Assembly: GCF_009497655.1 (NCBI RefSeq)
Contig: NZ_CP023317.1
Span: 1,703,501-1,767,500 of the forward strand
Direction: 5' to 3'
Length of the DNA: 64,000 bases
Source: Priestia megaterium
GTDB taxonomy: Bacteria > Bacillota > Bacilli > Bacillales > Bacillaceae_H
The notes beneath the pieces are model-generated. The model was given only the letters and a program-made list of their open reading frames with translations. It did no database searches and had not been told where the DNA came from. Of the stretch, positions 23,329 through 35,996 are shown one piece after another (the first letter of the stretch is position 1; every line of letters begins with the position of its first letter). Position numbers and translations under genes: made by a program.

Positions 23329-23674
23329 AATTTGGTATTATCTCCTCTAAGTATAGTGTAAAGAAATTACTCTTTGAGAGTGAGGGCTACACTATATTTA
23401 GTGGGGATTTTTTATGGTTCACTAAGGACGAGCTTCAACTTACTTAAACTGGAAAATGATAGTTTTCTTATCTCAAAAAAAAGCCCGTAAAAGTATACTG
23501 TTGCTGACTATCTATATCAGGCAACCTTAATCTTAAATTAAAACATGTTAGCGATATTCAAAAGCATACTAACCGTCTAGAAAAAGAGTGGGAAAGATAT
23601 AAAAAGAGCAAAGGCTTCTTCATTTATAAGAAGCCTTTGCTCTTTTTATATTGTTAGCTATTAGTAAGTACTAG
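23329..23674. other. Gap with hairpins and possible gene debris
   Basis: A TATAGTGTA/TACACTATA stem (23352-23360 with 23388-23396) with a T-rich tail probably ends the dha operon. Next comes a short frame encoding KHVSDIQKHTNRLEKEWERY (about 23530-23600), out of frame with ADYLYQATLIL just before it. This looks like the broken 3' end of an unknown gene. The strong hairpin at 23601 follows. Confidence 0.35.
23601..23650. terminator. Strong bidirectional terminator
   Basis: A perfect 20-bp stem (23601-23620 with 23628-23647) has A-runs before and T-runs after. It can end the leftward small membrane gene and any rightward transcript. Confidence 0.85.
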
Positions 23675-23908
23675 TTAGAGAAAAACAATTCCAAGTATAA
23701 ATAAACATATGGTAATAATGTTTATAACATTTTTAGCTTTGTCATCTTCTTTTATTGAAGTTACAAGTTCAAATATTATGACAAGAGTAAGTATAGACAA
23801 AGCTATCTGTAGATGTAAGTTAAATGCATATACAGATATTACAATTAGAGCATATATAATACCTAAAATTATATTTTTGTTATTCTTAGTTTTTTCATAA
23901 TTACTCAT
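23675..23908 (-). CDS. Small two- or three-helix membrane protein
   Basis: A 77-residue protein with a polar start (MSNYEKTKNNKN), two hydrophobic helices and a third at the C-terminus. ATG follows AAGGAG at a good distance on the minus strand. It has no recognised family. The strong terminator downstream supports expression. Confidence 0.55.
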   Translation of the reverse strand: MSNYEKTKNNKNIILGIIYALIVISVYAFNLHLQIALSILTLVIIFELVTSIKEDDKAKNVINIITICLFILGIVFL

Positions 23909-24645
23909 TTAAAAACTCCTTATTTAAAAATATTAGCTGTTCTTTGTTTTTTAAGGGAAGGTTTCAGTAACTAGGAGTAGGGTAAGGAAGATAATAGAAA
24001 AGGAAAAGCTATGTATAATATGATTTATATTTTCTTTGTCTGCTTTCTCTCAAGTGGATAATTTTACAAAAGTTTTAAAAATGAATACCTCCTATAATTG
24101 CTGTAACTAGCGTGTTTAATAATATCAAATACTTCTTTCTAAGAATTGTAGCACAAATAAAAAGCTCCCCCAGCACCATTTGTTTTAGAAAAACTTGATA
24201 AGCAATTTTATTTTTTAATACCCTTTCATCCTTGTTGGGTGAGTACACTGAAAGATGGGGTAGTCCTCATATCATATTCTATAAAAAGTGTACTAAATAT
24301 GACTGCCTATAGTTCTGAAACAGTACGTTTTCATAAAGATATTCTATCTAGCTCAACTGTATATTAAAATAAACGTACTAGCTTAATTTATTGCTTGTTG
24401 ATATGTTGTTAGATATGTACCTGTTTAGAAAAAAATAAAATAACTTACTGATAGTCCTTATGTAGAGCAGAACAAGCAGATTCTTAATTATTAAGAGCCT
24501 GCTTGTTTTACTTTACACGTAGCAGTAGATTCTTTATTTACGCTTTTATTGGCAAACAGAGCCTGGCACTGTTCGTCATTAGCAATGGGTCAGAAAAGTG
24601 CGCCTGTCTTTTTTCATTCTTAATTAATTACCTGTGGGCTAACGT
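23909..24645. other. 737-bp region without a supported gene
   Basis: No frame with a ribosome site is convincing on either strand. The only clear element is a hairpin, AACAAGCAG (24471-24479) with CTGCTTGTT (24499-24507) plus an inner TCTTAAT/ATTAAGA pair, followed by a T-rich run on the plus strand. The rest is AT-rich and could be decayed DNA. Confidence 0.4.
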
Positions 24646-25503
24646 CTAAATACGCATTAATGCGCCATTAGGCTTTGGTAAATCTTGATCCGTTATCAAA
24701 TTCATTTTGCAAAAATGTTCAAAAAATTGCTGTGCCTGCTCTCGTTCGTTTGAGTCACTTTTCAATGAAACTATATCAAGCAAAATTTGAGCCATCCATG
24801 AATTATCAAAATAACGGTATTTACCTGTATTCCACACCATTTTTTGGGAGTTCTTTTCGTTTATATAATATTTCCAGAAAAGCATCTGATTGGATTCTTG
24901 TTCTGTAAGTTGGAGTCTGTACGTTGAATGAGCAGGAATATATCCATCTTCGCAAAGCTTACCGATAAAATTTTCATTGACCATATAGACACCTAAGATG
25001 CGTCTGTCTTTTTCAGGCATACTGGAATCTATTGCTGTTAACAAGACAGCGCTATTTTGATGTAGGCGGGTGGGTTTGGTTGGCTTCCCCTTGTAATTAC
25101 CACTTTTTATTACGCCTGAAAAAACCGTCCACTCTGAAAAAGAACTATTCTGTTCTTCTGTGTCGCACCAAAAAACCATTTGTGATTCGGGATGAAGTTT
25201 ATGGTTTTTCATAAGTTTTTCATGTCCCCAGCGAAGTTCCTGATTTTTTCGCTGTAATTTTTTTTCTTCTTCCTTCTTCCATTCTTCCTCTTTTCGTTCC
25301 GTTTCCTTTTCTTCTAAAATTTTTTCCAGGGAATGAGCAACACTTTTATCATGCAGTTTTAGGTGCTTTCCAAATACATCGGGGAAAACAAATTTTTTGT
25401 TTTCTGATGCGAAATTTATTTCAATGCTAGAATCATTATATTTAACTATAGTACCTGTTCCAAAATGCTTGTGTGTAACTTTCTTATCGATTAGATTCAT
25501 CAT
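24646..25503 (-). CDS. Uncharacterised protein with SH3-like N-terminal domain and coiled coil
   Basis: The 285-residue protein starts with a small beta domain (about 1-50: VTHKHFGTGTIVKY ... KKFVFPDVFGKHL) like those appended to helicases and nucleic-acid proteins. A charged Glu/Lys coiled coil (about 58-98) and an unrecognised C-terminal domain with Trp- and Phe-rich stretches follow. Function is unknown. Paired ATGs (25503, 25500) follow AAGGAGG. Confidence 0.6.
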   Translation of the reverse strand: MMNLIDKKVTHKHFGTGTIVKYNDSSIEINFASENKKFVFPDVFGKHLKLHDKSVAHSLEKILEEKETERKEEEWKKEEEKKLQRKNQELRWGHEKLMKNHKLHPESQMVFWCDTEEQNSSFSEWTVFSGVIKSGNYKGKPTKPTRLHQNSAVLLTAIDSSMPEKDRRILGVYMVNENFIGKLCEDGYIPAHSTYRLQLTEQESNQMLFWKYYINEKNSQKMVWNTGKYRYFDNSWMAQILLDIVSLKSDSNEREQAQQFFEHFCKMNLITDQDLPKPNGALMRI

Positions 25504-25928
25504 TCTAGGCCTCCTTGTAGAATAAAAACGCGGTTACTACTTAGATAGTAAATTAATAATTTTATTCAACTAACTTACCTTTTGAGTTAACACAATTATT
25601 TTAATTTTATTTAAAAAAGAAAAAGCAACCTCAGTCTTTAATGGCATTCGAGTGAGGTTGCTTTTTGAGATAACTCTATAACTTTAGATAAATGATAACA
25701 TATTTATACGATAACGACTATCTTTTCCATGACGAGCACATGTATAAAAGGGGAGCTTTTTATACATCATATCTTCAATCACCTGAAAGAAAATAGTTGT
25801 TATATCAACAATCTATAAAACGTTTTATGGTAACTGTTTAAATATAGTTCAAACAGCAAAAGAACTACTGTATATTTCAGTAGTCCTACCAGTTCTATAA
25901 AGGCAAGCTAAATATAATTTGATAAATT
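25504..25928. other. Gap holding one terminator
   Basis: The only clear element is a hairpin AAAAGCAACCTCA (25621-25633) with TGAGGTTGCTTTT (25653-25665) followed by T. I see no gene in the remaining AT-rich sequence. Confidence 0.45.
25621..25668 (+). terminator. Hairpin terminator between leftward genes
   Basis: A 13-bp perfect stem with a T-run on the plus side and an A-run before it makes it usable in both directions. The leftward PEP-mutase-like gene ends 260 bp away. Confidence 0.7.
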
Positions 25929-26774
25929 CTATTCAGGAGTCCCAATTAGTTCTGTTATCGCATCATAACTCATATTATCATTCATTAATCGTTGAAAATT
26001 ATTATCACAAAGGATATCTTCAGTAATTCTTTGTAATAATGTAGCAGTTGCTCTAAAAGGGGCGGATCCAGTACTTAATCTTTCAATACCAACTTGCGAT
26101 AATGTATTAATAGAAGGCAAGTTTGGCCCAGACAAAAGATTAATGGGACAAGATAGTTCTTGTCGAACTTTTTTAATGGATTCCATGTCATATAGCCCAG
26201 GAATAAAAATACAATCTGCTCCAGCCTTTTGATATGCTTTTCCCCTATTGATGGCTTCTTGAAGTCTTAGATCCGGATTTCCTGTATTTAACCAGTACAA
26301 ATCAGTACGCGCATTAATAAATAATGGGGCTTTTAACGATTTGGATAGTAATCTAATTTCAGATATTTTTTCTACTTGCAACGAAACATCTAAAATAGGA
26401 CTATCTAAATCTCCCGTCCCATCTTCTAGGTTTATACCAATTCCTCCTGCTAAAATAATTTGTCTTGTATTATCTACCACTTCATTAGTAGACCTGCCAT
26501 AGCCAGACTCTAGGTCTACACTGACAGGAATATTGACGGAATTAATAATTCTCTTAACAGCTTCTAACATTTGTTCAAAAGGGATTTTTTCACCATCATT
26601 ATATCCTAAAGACATTGCTATGCCAGCACTGGTTGTTGCAATAGCTGGAAACCCATTTTTCTCAAAAATTTTAGCACTGATAACATCCCAAGCATTAGGC
26701 AATACAAAAGTATAGGGTCTTTTGTGAAGTTGTTGAAACGTCTGAAATTTAAGTAACTGCTTTTCATTATTCAC
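25929..26774 (-). CDS. Isocitrate lyase / PEP mutase family protein
   Basis: The 281-residue protein belongs to the PEP mutase/ICL superfamily by 'TSAGIAMSLGYNDGEKIPF' and 'NIPVSVDLESGYG' (metal-binding Asp/Glu), with NARTD later. It is the short YqiQ/BcpA-like type, so 2-methylisocitrate lyase or oxaloacetate decarboxylase activity is possible, but the sequence does not settle it. It is followed 96 bp further on by a DinB gene on the same strand. Confidence 0.8.
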   Translation of the reverse strand: MNNEKQLLKFQTFQQLHKRPYTFVLPNAWDVISAKIFEKNGFPAIATTSAGIAMSLGYNDGEKIPFEQMLEAVKRIINSVNIPVSVDLESGYGRSTNEVVDNTRQIILAGGIGINLEDGTGDLDSPILDVSLQVEKISEIRLLSKSLKAPLFINARTDLYWLNTGNPDLRLQEAINRGKAYQKAGADCIFIPGLYDMESIKKVRQELSCPINLLSGPNLPSINTLSQVGIERLSTGSAPFRATATLLQRITEDILCDNNFQRLMNDNMSYDAITELIGTPE

Positions 26775-26870
26775 AATGGTTCTTCCCCCTTTAAGTAAAC
26801 AACTTTATGGCTTTGTATGAGCGTTCTTTAGAGCAGAGAAAAATAAAACAACGGGAGATTAATCAGAAAC

Positions 26871-27347
26871 TTAATCCCATATTATAGGACGTTTAACTTT
26901 TGCAGTTCTTAAATAATCTAAAAGTTGTCCTGTATGTACTGATTCATGATAAGCCACTCGTAACAACATATCTCCTAACTCTCGAATATATCCCATCTCC
27001 GATCGGTCTATCTTTATCTCTGTTAGCTGCTTTTCATTAAGGAGGCCTAAAAACTCTATAAATTTTTCCCTATATGGTTGAGCAAACTTTAATGCTTCTT
27101 CAACAGAACTAAATGTTACTGCCTTATAAGGATTATGCTCCTCTGTTAGAGAAAGGTTAAGTGGTTTTTCTAACATTTGATGATAGAGGTATTCTCCTTC
27201 AAGAACATGATGTATCATCTCCCTACATGACATTGCTTCTGGATCAGGGCGCCAGTCTAACCTATCTTGAGGTATTGACATCCATACTTTTATACTTCGA
27301 CGTCTCACTTCTTCAAAGTTTAGTAAAATAAAACTCATTGCATCCAT
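26871..27347 (-). CDS. DinB-family four-helix protein
   Basis: A 158-residue DinB/DfrA-type protein with the spaced metal-binding histidines in MIHHVLEGEYLYH and YHESVHTGQLLDYLR. Such proteins act as thiol-dependent transferases or nickel/zinc enzymes, often in response to damage; the substrate is unknown. A frameshifted paralogue lies at 40678-41147. Confidence 0.85.
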   Translation of the reverse strand: MDAMSFILLNFEEVRRRSIKVWMSIPQDRLDWRPDPEAMSCREMIHHVLEGEYLYHQMLEKPLNLSLTEEHNPYKAVTFSSVEEALKFAQPYREKFIEFLGLLNEKQLTEIKIDRSEMGYIRELGDMLLRVAYHESVHTGQLLDYLRTAKVKRPIIWD

Positions 27348-27507
27348 TTTCGCTCACTCCTTTAGTTTTACTACAAATATAACACATCCAAAGTCTTACA
27401 ATGAAAAATATGGATGGTTTTATAAATATTATCTGTTTATTTAGATTAATCATTAATTTTTTAAGAAAGCCTGTTAATATAGATTTATTGAAAATTAGGA
27501 GGAAGTT

Positions 27508-28419
27508 ATGAGACAAAAAATAATTAGAATTAATAAACCAAACATATATAATTTTGATTTAATTTTAAGGTACATAAAAAACTCGCCCTCTTTTGTAATC
27601 GAGAAGGTTATTGAAAACACATATTGTAGAGCTTTTATAATAGGGGGAAGAACGTACCTAGTACTAGTTAGGGACGAAGGAATCGATAGTAAGTACTTGG
27701 AAGTTAAAGTTATTGGTGAAGAAGTTAAGAATAATCAGGTTCAACTAGTAAAGGAGAAAATTATCACAATATTTTGTCTGGAACAAGATATAAACAAAGC
27801 TCAAAAGTCTATAGCTAATGAATCTAAGATAGGAAAATTAATAAAAATGTACGAAGGGTTTAGACCTGTTTTATTAGGAAGTGTCTACGAATCCATCATA
27901 TGGGCAATCATCGGTCAACAAATTAGTGCAAAAGTTGCTCATAGGATTAAAAAGAGTTTGTTAGAAAAAACAGGAGCTAAAATAATAATTAATAACTGTG
28001 AATATTATACAGATTTATGCCCCCACAAGGTGATGAAGTTAAATATAAACCAACTTCGTGACTTAAAGCTAAGTCAAAGGAAAGCTGAATATATTCATGA
28101 AATAACTAAAGCCATTATAGATGAAGAGCTAGACTTAAGTTGCTTATATTTATTAGATCGTGAAGGGGGTTGTAGCTATTTAATGAAACATAGAGGTATA
28201 GGAAAATGGACGGCAGAGTCAATACTAATGAGAGGTATAGGACGTCAAGACATTCTACCCGCAGGAGACTTAATTATACGTAAAGTAGTAGGAGAGATTT
28301 ATGAGTATAACGAATTATTAACAGAATCACAAGTTAGAAAAATATCTACTCAATGGAAAACTGCGGAAACCTGGATTACTCATCTATGCTGGTTTTACAT
28401 GCAAGAAAAAATATTATAA
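27508..28419 (+). CDS. alkA: DNA-3-methyladenine glycosylase II, AlkA-like
   Basis: The 303-residue HhH-GPD glycosylase excises alkylated bases. The hairpin and catalytic Asp are clear in RGIGKWTAESILMRG and LPAGDLIIRK, preceded by the typical SVYESIIWAIIGQQIS. ATG 27508 follows GGAGG. It is divergent from the DinB gene, so both may answer alkylation damage. The peptide cluster follows downstream but has its own promoter. Confidence 0.88.
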   Translation: MRQKIIRINKPNIYNFDLILRYIKNSPSFVIEKVIENTYCRAFIIGGRTYLVLVRDEGIDSKYLEVKVIGEEVKNNQVQLVKEKIITIFCLEQDINKAQKSIANESKIGKLIKMYEGFRPVLLGSVYESIIWAIIGQQISAKVAHRIKKSLLEKTGAKIIINNCEYYTDLCPHKVMKLNINQLRDLKLSQRKAEYIHEITKAIIDEELDLSCLYLLDREGGCSYLMKHRGIGKWTAESILMRGIGRQDILPAGDLIIRKVVGEIYEYNELLTESQVRKISTQWKTAETWITHLCWFYMQEKIL

Positions 28420-28505
28420 ATGGAATATTTGTCGGTTTAAAATAAACGAAAAAAAGTATAATTTACCTGTTTTTGTTTGAATATTATAAAAATTGGATTT
28501 AATTG

Positions 28506-28534
28506 TTGAAAATGCCTTTTTAATGCAATATTAT
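28506..28534 (+). promoter_or_regulatory. Promoter of the peptide cluster
   Basis: TTGAAA (28506-28511), a 17-nt spacer and TATTAT (28529-28534) form a good promoter, with an expected start near 28541, about 27 nt before the peptide start codon. Confidence 0.65.
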
Positions 28535-28567
28535 AAATATATCTTTTAAGAAATGGAGGTGTTAGTT

Positions 28568-28630
28568 ATGAAGGTAAAAGTTAAGAAAACAACTAATAAA
28601 GCTGCGGTATTAAACGGTATTCCAGGCTAA
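28568..28630 (+). CDS. Candidate precursor peptide of a microcin-C-like system
   Basis: A 20-residue basic peptide starts at ATG 28568 behind the very strong site GGAGGTG (28555-28561). It begins MKVKVKK and ends VLNGIPG-stop. It lies between a dedicated promoter and a 30-nt hairpin, immediately upstream of a ThiF/MccB-like gene and an MFS exporter. This is the mccA position in microcin C operons. Known MccA peptides end in Asn; this one ends in Gly with Asn five residues before the end. A regulatory leader peptide is the main alternative. Confidence 0.65.
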   Translation: MKVKVKKTTNKAAVLNGIPG

Positions 28631-28652
28631 AACGTTATCATTATGTGAACTA

Positions 28653-28680
28653 CTTACTTATTGTTTAAACTTCAAGTCTG
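28653..28680 (+). repeat. 28-bp inverted repeat, left copy
   Basis: The sequence around the GTTTAAAC core matches the reverse complement of 31175-31202 at 26 of 28 positions. It lies just after the precursor peptide, and its partner lies just before the final terminator of the cluster. Confidence 0.8.
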
Positions 28681-28685
28681 TAAAT

Positions 28686-28715
28686 ATAGGGAACTATCAT
28701 ATGATAGTTCCCTAT
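28686..28715 (+). terminator. Hairpin between precursor and enzyme genes
   Basis: ATAGGGAACTATCAT (28686-28700) is followed directly by its exact reverse complement (28701-28715), then TTTCAATAATT. The weak T-tract suggests partial termination, giving much more precursor mRNA than enzyme mRNA. E. coli microcin C operons have a comparable terminator between mccA and mccB. Confidence 0.7.
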
Positions 28716-28751
28716 TTCAATAATTAAGAGAAATGGAGTGAAATGTAGAAA

Positions 28752-29858
28752 ATGAAACCTAAGTTCAAAGAGACAATCCCTGTATTTTTTATAAATGATG
28801 AAATCCATATTGGTGAAGAAGATGGAGTAGCAGGAGTTATTGAAGATCCCAGTGGAAGTATTAAGTATTTAATTTCTCTTATTAACGGAAAAAATTCTAT
28901 AGAAGAAATAATACATTTAGTCCAAGAAAAGTATCCAAACATAAAAGAAAATGAGGTATTGGAAGGGATAAAGGCATTAGATACAGAGAAATATTTAGAA
29001 GATAATTCTTTGAATCCTCAATCTATAGGAGATTATGAACTCGAAAGATACAAAGCAAACCTTAATTATTTTTCGCTTTTTACGTCTTTAGAGGACAATA
29101 AGTACAATGTGCAAGAAACTATCATAAATACAAAGGTTGCTTTGCTCGGAATCGGAGGTTTAGGTAGTCAAATACTATATCATCTATCTGCATTAGGTTT
29201 TCATAACATTAATGCATTGGATTTTGATACTTTGGAATTAAGCAATTTTAATAGACAGTTGTTATATTCTGAAAAAGATATTAATAAGTTAAAAACGGAA
29301 TTAGCAAAGGAAAGAATATCGCGTTTTAATCCTAATGTTAAGTTAAACGTTACTAATAAGCGTATAGAATGTGCTGAAGATGTAATGGCACATATTGAAG
29401 GTAGTGATTATGTAATTTGTGTAGCCGATAAACCAACCCTTCATATACAGGACTGGGTGAATGAAGCAGTAGTGAAGTTAGGAAAGCCGTTAGTTTCAGG
29501 TGGAGTCCTAAACACAAGGGGCAGATTTTATTCTATGTTACCAGGAAAAACTGGGTGTGTAGAGTGTCATAAACAAACCATAATTGAAAGTGATGTTATA
29601 GTTAATAAGCAACTTGACAGTATGCATCAGATAAATTTTCAACGAAATAATGCTGCGATTAGTCCTAATGTAGCTATGTTGGCTGGTGCTATTGTAAATG
29701 AATTTTTAGGGTTGGTAACAGGTATTCAAACTCCAACATCATTAGGGAAAATGATGGAATTAAATTTCCTTACATATCAAACTTACCCTATTTCAGAGTG
29801 GAATAAGAAAGAGGATTGTCCAGTTTGCCATTCCGCACCTGTAACAGCAGGTAAATAA
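28752..29858 (+). CDS. MccB-like / ThiF-family peptide adenylyltransferase
   Basis: The 368-residue protein has an N-terminal RRE/PqqD-like peptide-binding region (about 5-95) and an E1-type adenylation domain. Visible are the nucleotide loop GIGGLG (133-138), the acidic strand end LDFD (157-160), NFNRQLL (165-171) and zinc pairs CVEC (269-272) and CPVC (356-359). This order matches MccB, which couples a nucleotide to the C-terminus of a peptide. No YcaO partner or ThiS/MoaD-like carrier is nearby, which argues against thiamine or thiazole roles. The ribosome site GGAGTG is rather far (about 12 nt). Confidence 0.8.
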   Translation: MKPKFKETIPVFFINDEIHIGEEDGVAGVIEDPSGSIKYLISLINGKNSIEEIIHLVQEKYPNIKENEVLEGIKALDTEKYLEDNSLNPQSIGDYELERYKANLNYFSLFTSLEDNKYNVQETIINTKVALLGIGGLGSQILYHLSALGFHNINALDFDTLELSNFNRQLLYSEKDINKLKTELAKERISRFNPNVKLNVTNKRIECAEDVMAHIEGSDYVICVADKPTLHIQDWVNEAVVKLGKPLVSGGVLNTRGRFYSMLPGKTGCVECHKQTIIESDVIVNKQLDSMHQINFQRNNAAISPNVAMLAGAIVNEFLGLVTGIQTPTSLGKMMELNFLTYQTYPISEWNKKEDCPVCHSAPVTAGK

Positions 29859-29875
29859 TTATGATGGGGGGGTAA

Positions 29876-31114
29876 ATGTTGAAATCTTATGAAGTACTAA
29901 AGAACAGAGATTTTTTATGCTTATTTTTAAGTGCCACAACAAGTAAGTTGGGCACGTCTTTTTTTCAAATCGCACTGCCTTTATTAGTATATGATTTGAC
30001 TAAATCACCAAGTTTAATGGCATTAACATTTGTTTTAGAAATTACGCCTCAAGTATTGTTTAGTTTGTTAGGCGGAGCCTTAGCTGATCGTATAAGTAAG
30101 AAATACATTTTATTAATAGGTGATATTTTATCAGCCATTTTAATTATTATCATACCTCTTGCAGCTTTAATAAACGTGTTAGATATATGGATTGTATATG
30201 TGGTAGCTTTTTTAATATCAGCTGTGAGTGCATTTTATCATCCAAGTTTTGAATCAGTCATACCAGAAATTTTAGAAGGTGAAAATTTAATACAGGGTAA
30301 CTCTTTATTCAAGTTATCAGAGACAATCACAACCTTTGCAGGCCCTTCAATAGCAGGCATTTTAATTGCTTTGGTTGGAACTCATAACTTATTATATTTT
30401 AATTTTTTCACGTATTTTCTTTCTGGAATATTCATTGGCTTAATAACTAAGAAATATAAAAGCCAGAATCCAGTTAATAGTTCTATAATGAATTCAATAG
30501 CTGAAGGAGTTAAATACGTTATAAATACTAAAAAGATTTTGATAGGGACTATTCTCATATTCTTAATCAATGTGGGTTATGGTGCTATGGAAGCTTTATT
30601 TATGTTTCATCTAAAGGATAATTTACATTTATCGGCACAGTATATTGGTTTAATATTTTCCCTACAAACCTTAGGGTCATTTGTAGCAATTTATGCTGCA
30701 AATAAACTAAATAAATTACCACGGGGAAATATAATTATCTATTGTGGTGTAATAATAGGTTTAGGTCAAACTATCCTTACTTTTTCAAACACTGCAGTTA
30801 TTTTGTTAATAGTCTGTAGAATTGTAATTGTCGGTTCGGTAACATTATTAGCAATTAATTGGTTTACCCTTAGGCAAGAGATTGTGCCATCAGCCTTATT
30901 GGGAAGAGTAATTAGTTCAACTCGTATGTTAGCTTTTTTGGCTTTACCGATTAGTGGAATGTTAGCAGGTGTTGCAGCTGAATATATTAGCGTCTCTTTA
31001 ATTTTTATTTCAGCAGGCATCCTAACGATTGTGGCGTCTTTAATCGGCATTAAGACCTCTCTATTTGAGACCCAACAATCTATAGATCAACCTATTAATA
31101 GTAGCAACAAGTAG
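29876..31114 (+). CDS. MFS exporter of the peptide cluster (MccC-like)
   Basis: A 412-residue protein with 12 predicted helices. It has the MFS motif GGALADRISKK between helices 2 and 3 and the PSFESVIPEI loop of the drug-exporter group. It begins 17 bp after the MccB-like gene, so they are co-transcribed. In microcin C systems MccC of this family exports the nucleotide-peptide and gives partial immunity. No MccE- or MccF-type immunity gene is beside it. A G-rich run (29865-29872) serves as ribosome site for ATG 29876. Confidence 0.85.
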   Translation: MLKSYEVLKNRDFLCLFLSATTSKLGTSFFQIALPLLVYDLTKSPSLMALTFVLEITPQVLFSLLGGALADRISKKYILLIGDILSAILIIIIPLAALINVLDIWIVYVVAFLISAVSAFYHPSFESVIPEILEGENLIQGNSLFKLSETITTFAGPSIAGILIALVGTHNLLYFNFFTYFLSGIFIGLITKKYKSQNPVNSSIMNSIAEGVKYVINTKKILIGTILIFLINVGYGAMEALFMFHLKDNLHLSAQYIGLIFSLQTLGSFVAIYAANKLNKLPRGNIIIYCGVIIGLGQTILTFSNTAVILLIVCRIVIVGSVTLLAINWFTLRQEIVPSALLGRVISSTRMLAFLALPISGMLAGVAAEYISVSLIFISAGILTIVASLIGIKTSLFETQQSIDQPINSSNK

Positions 31115-31174
31115 ATAATTACTTGGGTTGACTTGAAACATATTGATATTTAGTGTATTCTTCTATAAGAACTT

Positions 31175-31202
31175 CATACTTGGAGTTTAAACAATAAGTA
31201 AG
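31175..31202 (-). repeat. 28-bp inverted repeat, right copy
   Basis: Reverse complement of 28653-28680 at 26 of 28 positions. It ends directly at the cluster's final terminator. Confidence 0.8.
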
Positions 31203-31238
31203 AACCCCTTTAACATACGGTTAATAGGGGTTTTTAAT
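31203..31238 (+). terminator. Terminator of the peptide cluster
   Basis: AACCCCT pairs with AGGGGTT, extended by TAAC/GTTA, followed by a T-run. It closes the rightward unit. Confidence 0.8.
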
Positions 31239-31381
31239 TTTTAATCCAAATGTGCATCTGATATACAAGCAAAAATCTTTTTTCATACCGAAAATACGAG
31301 TTATGTTAAGTAAAACGTAAAGTATTTGATGAAAATAATCAGTTTAACTATTTACTCTTAGTGATGACAAATGGATGGGTG

Positions 31382-33729: not shown

Positions 33730-33789
33730 TAAAAGCTTAAAATGCCTTTCCCGGCAGCTTCAAGCCCACCCATTTCACTGATTTCACTT

Positions 33790-33957
33790 CATTATTTTGG
33801 TCATTTTATGCGATTTAGTAGCCAACAGGGAGCTGATATCGTCTTAATTCAAAAGGAGCTTGGTCACAGTGATCGTAAAATAACGGAACGTTATCTAGAA
33901 AAGGTTTTGCAGAGAAAACAAAAAATTGGGCTACTGTGGAAGGAACAAGATTTCTAA
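33790..33957 (+). pseudogene. 3' remnant of a tyrosine recombinase
   Basis: The frame ends with GADIVLIQKELGHSDRKITE, then RYLEKVL, the His/Trp-box and catalytic Tyr region of phage-type integrases. The conserved HxxR is degraded (HYFGH). Everything before position 33790 is missing. It starts about 60 bp after recA. Confidence 0.75.
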
Positions 33958-35492: not shown

Positions 35493-35996
35493 ATGGAAAA
35501 GCTAGAATATGAATGGGTAAAACTAGCACGACAAACTTTATTAGAGCAGTGTAGAGAATTGAGTGAAGGTGACTTGACGAAAGAGTTTGCATTTGGTTTT
35601 CAAAATATTAGAGATTCTCTAGTTCATGTGGCAGGTTGCTACCATGCTTGGTTAGGTTCTTTTGTGCTTTCAGAAACATCATCACCACTATTCACAAAAG
35701 AAGTAATTAATACTATGAAAATAGACGATATTCAGCATTATTTTCAACAGGCTGATAGATATGTAGAAAAAGTATTGGAGCAATTCACAGATAAATTTGA
35801 TGAGTCTATCGAAAAAGAACTTGCTTGGAGAGCAAACAGTGGTTTTGTAAGAAAGACACCTCGTCAATTGCTTACCCATTCAATTACTCACGAATCACAT
35901 CATAAAGGACAAATTGTAGTTATGTTACGTCTATTAGGGCATACACCTAAAAATACGGACATATTGGGATTACCTGAAAAAGAACCTTTCAAATAA
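35493..35996 (+). CDS. DinB-family protein
   Basis: A 167-residue DinB protein with metal-site histidines in LVHVAGCYHAW and THSITHESHHKGQ. It resembles the YizA/YuaE type rather than the other DinB proteins of this window. The upstream leader has a partial copy near 40545-40620. The function is unknown. Confidence 0.82.
   Translation: MEKLEYEWVKLARQTLLEQCRELSEGDLTKEFAFGFQNIRDSLVHVAGCYHAWLGSFVLSETSSPLFTKEVINTMKIDDIQHYFQQADRYVEKVLEQFTDKFDESIEKELAWRANSGFVRKTPRQLLTHSITHESHHKGQIVVMLRLLGHTPKNTDILGLPEKEPFK

Follow-up and report, generated by a model that had tools for sequence, protein, structure and literature searches.

The window analysed here, a 64,000-nucleotide stretch of Priestia megaterium DNA (contig NZ_CP023317.1, positions 1,703,501 to 1,767,500), contains at 28506-31238 a compact cassette read from the forward strand: a gene for a short precursor peptide, a gene for a ThiF (E1-like) adenylyltransferase and a gene for a major facilitator superfamily (MFS) exporter. 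The original prediction took the cassette for a microcin-C-like nucleotide-peptide cluster. Our best reading is that it is a real, conserved and mobile cassette for a ribosomally synthesized and post-translationally modified peptide (RiPP), a variant of the ThiF-like adenylyltransferase (TLAT) kind that resembles microcin C in its layout and fold but not in its chemistry.

The precursor gene (28568-28630, including the stop codon) has 20 codons beginning with the ATG at 28568 and encodes MKVKVKKTTNKAAVLNGIPG, for which the calculated monoisotopic mass is 2096.250 (2078.240 after loss of water). It stands behind the ribosome-binding site GGAGGTG (28555-28561), read directly from the sequence, and GGAGGTG or GGGGGTG is also found 5' of the precursor copies at four related loci (L027, L028, L029 and L030). 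Between the precursor and enzyme genes lies a perfect 30-nt palindromic hairpin, ATAGGGAACTATCATATGATAGTTCCCTAT (28686-28715). The 368-residue enzyme (28752-29858; PF00899, 1.1e-48) carries an N-terminal domain like a RiPP recognition element (RRE). The exporter gene (29876-31114; PF05977/PF07690) begins 17 bp 3' of the ThiF gene and is followed by an intrinsic terminator hairpin (31199-31236) with a U-rich 3' side and a fold z of -5.1; this terminator was not one of the two terminator-like sites given by a consensus scan. All of these parts had been described in the original prediction and were borne out. The promoter that it assigned to the cassette fared less well: a possible sigma-A promoter, TTGAAA-17-TATTAT, is present at 28506-28534 as a consensus match only, and the 20 promoter-type consensus matches of the region are not clearly above the 16.6 +/- 3.2 of shuffled sequences, leaving the promoter as the weak point of the parts list.

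Genome searches for the same peptide-ThiF-MFS trio gave eight loci including the window, here called the clade loci. Scanning contigs with the enzyme gave five named relatives, in Peribacillus frigoritolerans (78%), Priestia endophytica (78%), Peribacillus muralis (77%), Scopulibacillus daqui (74%) and Marininema halotolerans (63%). A plasmid search added the enzyme of Macrococcus bovicus pLI0213a (54%), and a search across the class added locus G506 (55%). The eight loci come from several families of Bacilli. All have the order precursor, ThiF, MFS, with the MFS gene directly 3' of the ThiF gene, and at all eight a short peptide is conserved beside the enzyme. Loci found under two names were counted once (L005/L007 are L028/L029, and L124/L141 are L031). 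Within the order, a homologue of the enzyme at E <= 1e-30 was present in 22 of 397 genomes.

The clade loci hold 11 precursor copies, all of which end in Gly and nine in Pro-Gly; the window peptide ends VLNGIPG. Two copies each are found in Peribacillus frigoritolerans (MKVKVQKTSKKAAVLYSFPG and MKVKIQKTSKKAAVLYSFPG), Peribacillus muralis (MKVKVQKTSKKAAVLYSFPG and MKVKVQKTSKKSAVLYSFPG) and Priestia endophytica (MSVKVKKTSKKAAVLYSFLG and a second copy ending SFPG). Scopulibacillus daqui (MTIKIKKANKKAGVVLGFPG), Marininema halotolerans (MIKVEKGASLAGVVVALPG), Macrococcus bovicus (MSLKMETIKNKAALLGGVPG) and G506 (MKLKIRKADRKEVAYATDLGDVG, with a TTG start and a weaker Shine-Dalgarno sequence) each have one. 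Lys4 is present in all 11 copies and, by our own alignment, Lys11 in ten, with Leu in its place in Marininema. Neither Cys nor Trp occurs in the last nine residues of any copy. At three of the eight loci, those of Scopulibacillus (AGVVLGFPG), Marininema (AGVVVALPG) and Macrococcus (AALLGGVPG), this segment has no side-chain nucleophile; that of the window peptide includes Asn, and those of Peribacillus and the other Priestia include Tyr-Ser. As Asp and Glu are absent from the window peptide (and from eight of the 11 copies overall), the C-terminal carboxylate of Gly20 is the only carboxylate open to the E1-like domain.

Substitution counts were made on nine copies, those other than L031 (one residue shorter) and G506. 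pN was lower than pS in 34 of 36 pairs and one further pair was identical; the near-identical pair L027b/L030b differed by two non-synonymous and no synonymous changes. Between the window and L027a precursors pS was 0.66 and pN 0.14. On these sequence comparisons we consider the precursor gene real and under purifying selection.

An AlphaFold2 model of the enzyme made with 25 homologues (pLDDT 91.1, pTM 0.89) was compared by Foldseek with the Protein Data Bank (PDB). The best match was MccB of microcin C (3h9g; E 9.0e-27, TMq 0.77), followed by PaaA of pantocin A (5ff5; E 7.2e-25, TMq 0.72), with MoeB and ThiF behind both (best 4.2e-20, TMq up to 0.60), an order to be expected if an N-terminal RRE-like domain is common to MccB, PaaA and the window enzyme. 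Both matches cover nearly the whole chain. Residues 1-84 of the model, where the RRE-like domain lies, form strands and then three helices and one strand, and a weak PqqD match spans residues 38-69 (E 0.003). From the model, the protein is an RRE-like domain fused to ThiF, and this domain is predicted to bind peptide. Ranked by sequence, PaaA came first among PDB entries (1.8e-28) and MccB second (1.8e-24). The Zn-type CxxC pairs C269/C272 and C356/C359, which the original prediction noted as two CxxC pairs, do not vary across the 25 aligned homologues (an alignment of loci other than L025 and the plasmid loci). There is no Cys between C272 and C356, the interval in which the thioester Cys of ThiF lies. 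The adenylation residues N165, R168, Q169, K181 and D226 are likewise invariant (25/25), and by our own reading the window residues appear to match the R, K and D named for EnfB, the enterofaecin enzyme (PMC12250964).

A PF00899 domain is also what a housekeeping or anti-phage E1 would carry, one acting in sulfur-carrier activation or in defence of the cyclic-oligonucleotide-based antiphage signalling (CBASS) or E1-E2 type, with the 20-codon gene as a chance open reading frame (ORF). PADLOC E1-E2 models did match part of the protein (best 3e-13). We give this explanation next to no credence, given the RRE-like domain, the conserved peptide under purifying selection and the 25 NCBIfam matches shown (of 30), all of which were under their cut-offs. 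In the tree, the window enzyme and six named relatives formed one clade (seven rows; G506, found later, is in no tree) with support of 100/100, and of 98/98 in a second tree, which together with the approximately unbiased (AU) tests was run on rows other than the long or distant ones (L002-L004, L025, L026, L112 and L113). Of the other E1 homologues in this genome, the two that stand beside ThiS genes fell beyond a 100/100 branch, and the window enzyme does not group with them; a third, L004, lies on a very long branch and its placement is unsure. The two ThiS-family matches of the genome are at 0.52 and 4.76 Mb, about 3 kb or less from other E1 homologues, whereas this enzyme is at 1.73 Mb. 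The tree and the ThiS positions led us to reject a housekeeping E1, and the PADLOC matches, being only partial, to reject an E1-E2 defence role. A YcaO gene was found nowhere in the genome, and a role as the ThiF partner of YcaO, as in linear azol(in)e-containing peptide (LAP) or heterocycloanthracin pathways, was also rejected. These results agree with the original statement that no YcaO or ThiS gene is nearby.

The cassette shares with that of microcin C7 (MccA/MccB/MccC) its gene order, an E1 fold with an RRE-like domain and an MFS exporter. The comparison of order is a fair one, as the stretch 5' of E. coli mccB (matched to the PDB MccB segment) translates to MRTGNAN. A true microcin-C relative would attach AMP or a different nucleotide to the peptide, giving a Trojan-horse inhibitor of an aminoacyl-tRNA synthetase. 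MccB as best fold match, the presence of Asn16 in the window peptide and an AU test that leaves a joint clade with MccB unrejected (p 0.20) are consistent with such a relative. However, MccB acts on a C-terminal Asn, which passes through a succinimide and ends in an N-P bond (PMC12250964), and where its 7-residue precursor ends in Asn, the 20-residue window peptide and all other copies end in Gly. Hence the Asn/succinimide route and its N-P nucleotide chemistry are not available here. Moreover, the other alignable members have Tyr, Leu, Val or Gly where the window peptide has Asn16, and no MccD-, MccE-, MccF-like or carboxymethyltransferase gene was recognised by ORFs and Pfam in the inserted stretch that holds the cassette (described below; one 285-residue protein there is unassigned). 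The enzyme is 21-22% identical to MccB in structural alignments, and MccB and a Vibrio PaaA-like protein fall outside the window clade in the tree, a tentative placement among deep nodes where the MccB and PaaA branches are long. Neither finding that the original prediction named as refuting it came about: the enzyme does not fall with the two E1 homologues beside ThiS genes, and the short peptide is kept beside the enzyme at all eight clade loci. The predicted joining of a nucleotide to the peptide end was not supported, microcin-C chemistry was rejected, and we regard a true microcin-C relative as improbable. What survives of the prediction is a compact RiPP-type cassette in the mccA-mccB-mccC order whose enzyme agrees with MccB in fold and adenylation residues, but has PaaA as its best sequence match and was not recovered in a joint clade with MccB. 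As the precursor lacks the terminal Asn that microcin C chemistry needs, the product is probably a different kind of modified peptide.

Pantocin A (PaaP/PaaA) likewise has an RRE-E1 enzyme, and the rank of PaaA by sequence together with an unrejected joint clade with the Vibrio PaaA-like protein (AU p 0.17) would fit a pantocin-like route, in which side-chain carboxylates are dehydrated and decarboxylated within the molecule. This seems more improbable still. The pantocin A pathway involves a Glu-Glu in a 30-residue peptide, a 2-oxoglutarate (2OG) oxygenase and an EamA exporter (PMC12250964). None of these was recognised here: the window peptide has no Glu-Glu or other acidic residue, and neither a 2OG-Fe(II) oxygenase nor a drug/metabolite transporter (DMT) exporter was recognised in the insertion. 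The Vibrio locus of the pantocin A family served as a control, and has a 30-residue precursor with an internal Glu-Glu-Asn before the paaA-like gene, then both the oxygenase and the DMT exporter. Pantocin chemistry was rejected because Glu-Glu is missing.

A PF00899 enzyme with intact adenylation residues, an N-terminal RRE and a conserved adjacent precursor are the features that the cassette has in common with TLAT RiPPs. Among these, enterofaecin (EnfA/EnfB) also has a precursor of about 20 residues whose leader holds a short basic motif, (V/I)RKA in enterofaecin (PMC12250964) and VKVKK in the window peptide. It also has an RRE-ThiF enzyme, and in that pathway the C-terminal carboxylate is activated and a backbone nitrogen is the nucleophile (PMC12250964), as we propose for the window cassette. 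The two differ in that the enterofaecin core ends WWIVI, whereas the clade cores end (I/F/L/V)PG and that of the window VLNGIPG, and in that four transporter proteins plus regulators stand there in place of the single MFS protein here. In the tree the nearest enterofaecin proxy is L012 (core AWWIIF), which lies outside the window clade; EnfB itself was not among the rows. The L012 locus (G150:C2), in a genome of the taxonomic order to which the window belongs, has an enterofaecin-like precursor with the end AWWIIF. The IndF indolylamide and GrcB thiolactone pathways also begin with adenylation, after which the peptide closes into a ring through a nucleophile of its own (PMC12150305). They use Trp or Cys, however, and both are missing from the nine C-terminal residues of every clade precursor. 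In the literature examined, Gly-ending ThiF-RiPPs were not described; the enterofaecin primary paper or the supplements of mining papers could hold one.

The gene set, its conservation, the predicted fold, the intact catalytic residues, the terminal Gly and the lack of any other carboxylate in the window peptide are observed. We think it probable that this is a mobile TLAT RiPP cassette in which the C-terminal Gly is adenylated and then undergoes enterofaecin-like backbone cyclisation or amidation. The ribosome would make the 20-residue peptide, whose lysine-rich N-terminal half (approximately M-x-[VIL]-K-[VIM]) would be the leader, with a putative leader/core split behind it, and would dock on the enzyme's winged-helix RRE. 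The ThiF protein would then adenylate the Gly20 carboxylate. The acyl adenylate would most likely be captured intramolecularly by a backbone amide near the C-terminus to form an enterofaecin-type ring, for which the penultimate Pro would help the turn; alternatively, capture by an external amine would give a C-terminal amide, and an external amine as nucleophile is also described in the TLAT review (PMC12250964). The MFS protein would export the product, which may have an antibacterial use. The three loci that have no nucleophilic side chain in the core constrain the capture step, as a chemistry common to the clade would have to do without core side chains. They argue against thiolactone- or indolylamide-type closure as a common step and leave a backbone nitrogen, an external amine or a lysine nearer the N-terminus, of which we favour the backbone.

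Several points weigh against this scheme. One copy (Priestia) ends in Leu-Gly and one (G506) in Val-Gly, so Pro is not required, and the three copies with Asp or Glu (Marininema, Macrococcus and G506) could offer other carboxylates. The imide ring is proposed by analogy with one enzyme; the enterofaecin ring is supported by mass spectrometry and nuclear magnetic resonance (NMR) (PMC12250964), yet its product has also been called putative and in need of more NMR (PMC12150305). No protease was recognised in the insertion, which leaves leader removal unexplained. A Lys-to-Gly macrolactam is possible, given Lys11 in all but one of the copies.

More distant homologues of the enzyme within the order (about 25-39% identity) were considered at 20 loci. 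At 19 of these a basic, leader-like peptide adjoins the enzyme (that of L010 on the opposite strand), and at the twentieth it is fused in frame to the end of the enzyme. The distant-locus peptides were chosen by a Shine-Dalgarno filter or a leader pattern, and their leader likeness is in part a product of that selection. Recurrent leaders in the wider family include MKIEVKKTEKLKPT and MKKIVVRKL, the cores vary widely, and two to five tandem precursor copies occur at eight of the 20 loci. Such leader-like peptides with variable cores place the window in a broad, known kind of RiPP, of which the Gly-ending clade is one branch; very variable C-termini are also a feature of described TLAT-RiPPs (PMC12150305, PMC12250964). 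One listing of peptides took only those with at least three Lys or Arg in the first 11 residues, and the lack of a listed precursor for L126-L130 is a weak negative in view of that demand.

Several loci of the wider family have arrangements of their own. L025 (G184:C5) has a precursor-like MKVRVVKEEKNGGLICLGTRLFKLVC in frame at the ThiF C-terminus, and a GGAGGT and ATG for it stand within the ORF, from which the substrate may be produced on its own as well as joined to the enzyme. At L020, L021, L023 and L022, three to five precursors stand in tandem before one ThiF gene; their leader (MKIEVKKTEKLKPT or MKIKVRKNEKLTPT) hardly changes and their short cores differ (VIPYGG, YVPYAG, FMPYGG, YYPYIS and ANVYGG), a combinatorial system. 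Nine genomes of one genus (L131-L137, L139 and L140) instead have an identical 18-residue MKIQAKKVESVRTTAVAA before ThiF, unlike the variable cores elsewhere. Three further plasmids carry ThiF genes. The conjugative Salmonella plasmid pLG26p2 (L111, 3780-6207) has ThiF (37%) and MFS genes with an upstream candidate peptide ending in Gly, MKFTKHATSNAKLALVG. Sporosarcina plasmid pA38H4 (L033) has ThiF (37% identical) near a DinB gene (51% to that of the window), an M3 peptidase and an ABC exporter. In a Macrococcus armenti plasmid (L114), the ThiF gene is followed by arginase-family and isochorismatase-family genes, possibly a different RiPP pathway.

The hairpin between the precursor and the enzyme folds at -19.4 kcal/mol over 43 nt (z -6.8). 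A similar stem is kept in five species, the window and four more, with G-U changes in two and, by our own reading, one mismatch in Scopulibacillus; Marininema has an unrelated hairpin at the same place. No two-sided compensating change was found across the five species and thus the support for the hairpin is sequence conservation rather than covariation. It is probably an attenuator or a stabilising or protective mRNA element that favours the peptide over the enzyme, and would keep precursor transcripts in excess of those for the enzyme.

Compared with the same-genus genome G007, the window has a 7.85-kb stretch (23436-31287) where G007 has 125 bp, with flanks about 95% identical. The GC content of the stretch is 0.317, against 0.360 and 0.347 in the flanks. 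In addition to the trio it holds the 285-residue protein, which has no Pfam match over cut-off, and three further genes: those for a phosphoenolpyruvate (PEP)-mutase/isocitrate-lyase-family protein (PF13714; 25929-26774, reverse strand), a DinB_2-fold protein (26871-27347, reverse strand) and an AlkA/OGG-like DNA glycosylase (HhH-GPD; 27508-28419, forward strand), the last of which was not found at the other seven clade loci. Congener G009 has about 0.7 kb resembling 23489-24175 (84%) near the same flank, and the insertion is therefore not a clean single unit everywhere. The sole repeat of at least 10 bp common to both edges is one 10-bp direct repeat, perhaps due to chance. In P. endophytica the unit that varies relative to a congener is the precursors-ThiF-MFS block only (2.95 kb against 57 bp). 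Carriage by phages or viruses was rejected: there was no phage match at E 1e-20, and none of 174 candidate stretches in viral contigs was confirmed. Outside the insertion, a short ORF behind recA (33742-33957) has a below-cut-off match to a phage integrase end and is perhaps a remnant, and a second DinB-family gene (35493-35996) lies about 4 kb past the insertion.

The PEP-mutase-family gene is found near six of the eight clade loci and the DinB gene near five, with changing positions (and, for the former, orientations). At G506 and at the Macrococcus locus (for the latter, within 5 kb on either side) neither gene was found, DinB was not found at the Marininema locus, and searches around the 20 distant ThiF loci, reaching up to 9 kb to either side and less at contig ends, found neither. 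That both genes are inside the insertion counts for a partnership with the trio; that both are kept in a Priestia congener without the trio speaks against it. At 50% identity or more, the PEP-mutase-family gene occurred in three of three clade genomes and eight of 394 others in one sample (hypergeometric p 1.6e-5, a value that ignores relatedness), and this distribution suggests a role in the cassette. Relatives of DinB are widespread, with matches in 62 of the 397 genomes at E 1e-25, which weakens its reading as a partner. The motif EDKxxxKxNS is characteristic of PEP mutase; it was not visible in the PEP-mutase-family protein, which scored 55.5 against an NCBIfam PEP mutase cut-off of 319.55, and phosphonate (C-P bond) chemistry was rejected. 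At L110 (G186:C3) a PEP-mutase-family gene adjoins an AlkA-like glycosylase gene (33% to that of the window) and a transporter-like ORF, and no ThiF was found in the 19 kb covered.

These neighbours and the conserved lysines are the grounds for another outcome of Gly activation, macrolactam formation with Lys11 or a leader Lys, or else transfer to an acceptor from outside the peptide, for instance a small molecule that the PEP-mutase-family or DinB protein would help to supply. We hold this to be rather unlikely, as Marininema has Leu for Lys11, Lys4 lies within the strand presumed to bind the RRE, and two of the clade loci lack a detected PEP-mutase-family or DinB gene. Also rather unlikely is a ubiquitin-like logic on a 20-residue peptide in which the E1-like enzyme would activate the conserved C-terminal Gly and join it, with no side-chain nucleophile involved, to a backbone nitrogen or a small acceptor, which would make the clade a new RiPP class, with the PEP-mutase-family and DinB proteins in tailoring or self-protection.

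The peptide linkages formed by ThiF-like enzymes include several that are unrelated, and many of the RiPP pathways of these enzymes are uncharacterised (PMC12250964, PMC12150305). With three genes and a natural range of cores largely stripped of side-chain chemistry, the clade described here is suited to showing how an E1 enzyme acts on an activated C-terminal Gly when there is no terminal Asn, Glu-Glu, Cys or Trp. The natural pairs of related species with and without the cassette provide ready controls for finding its product.

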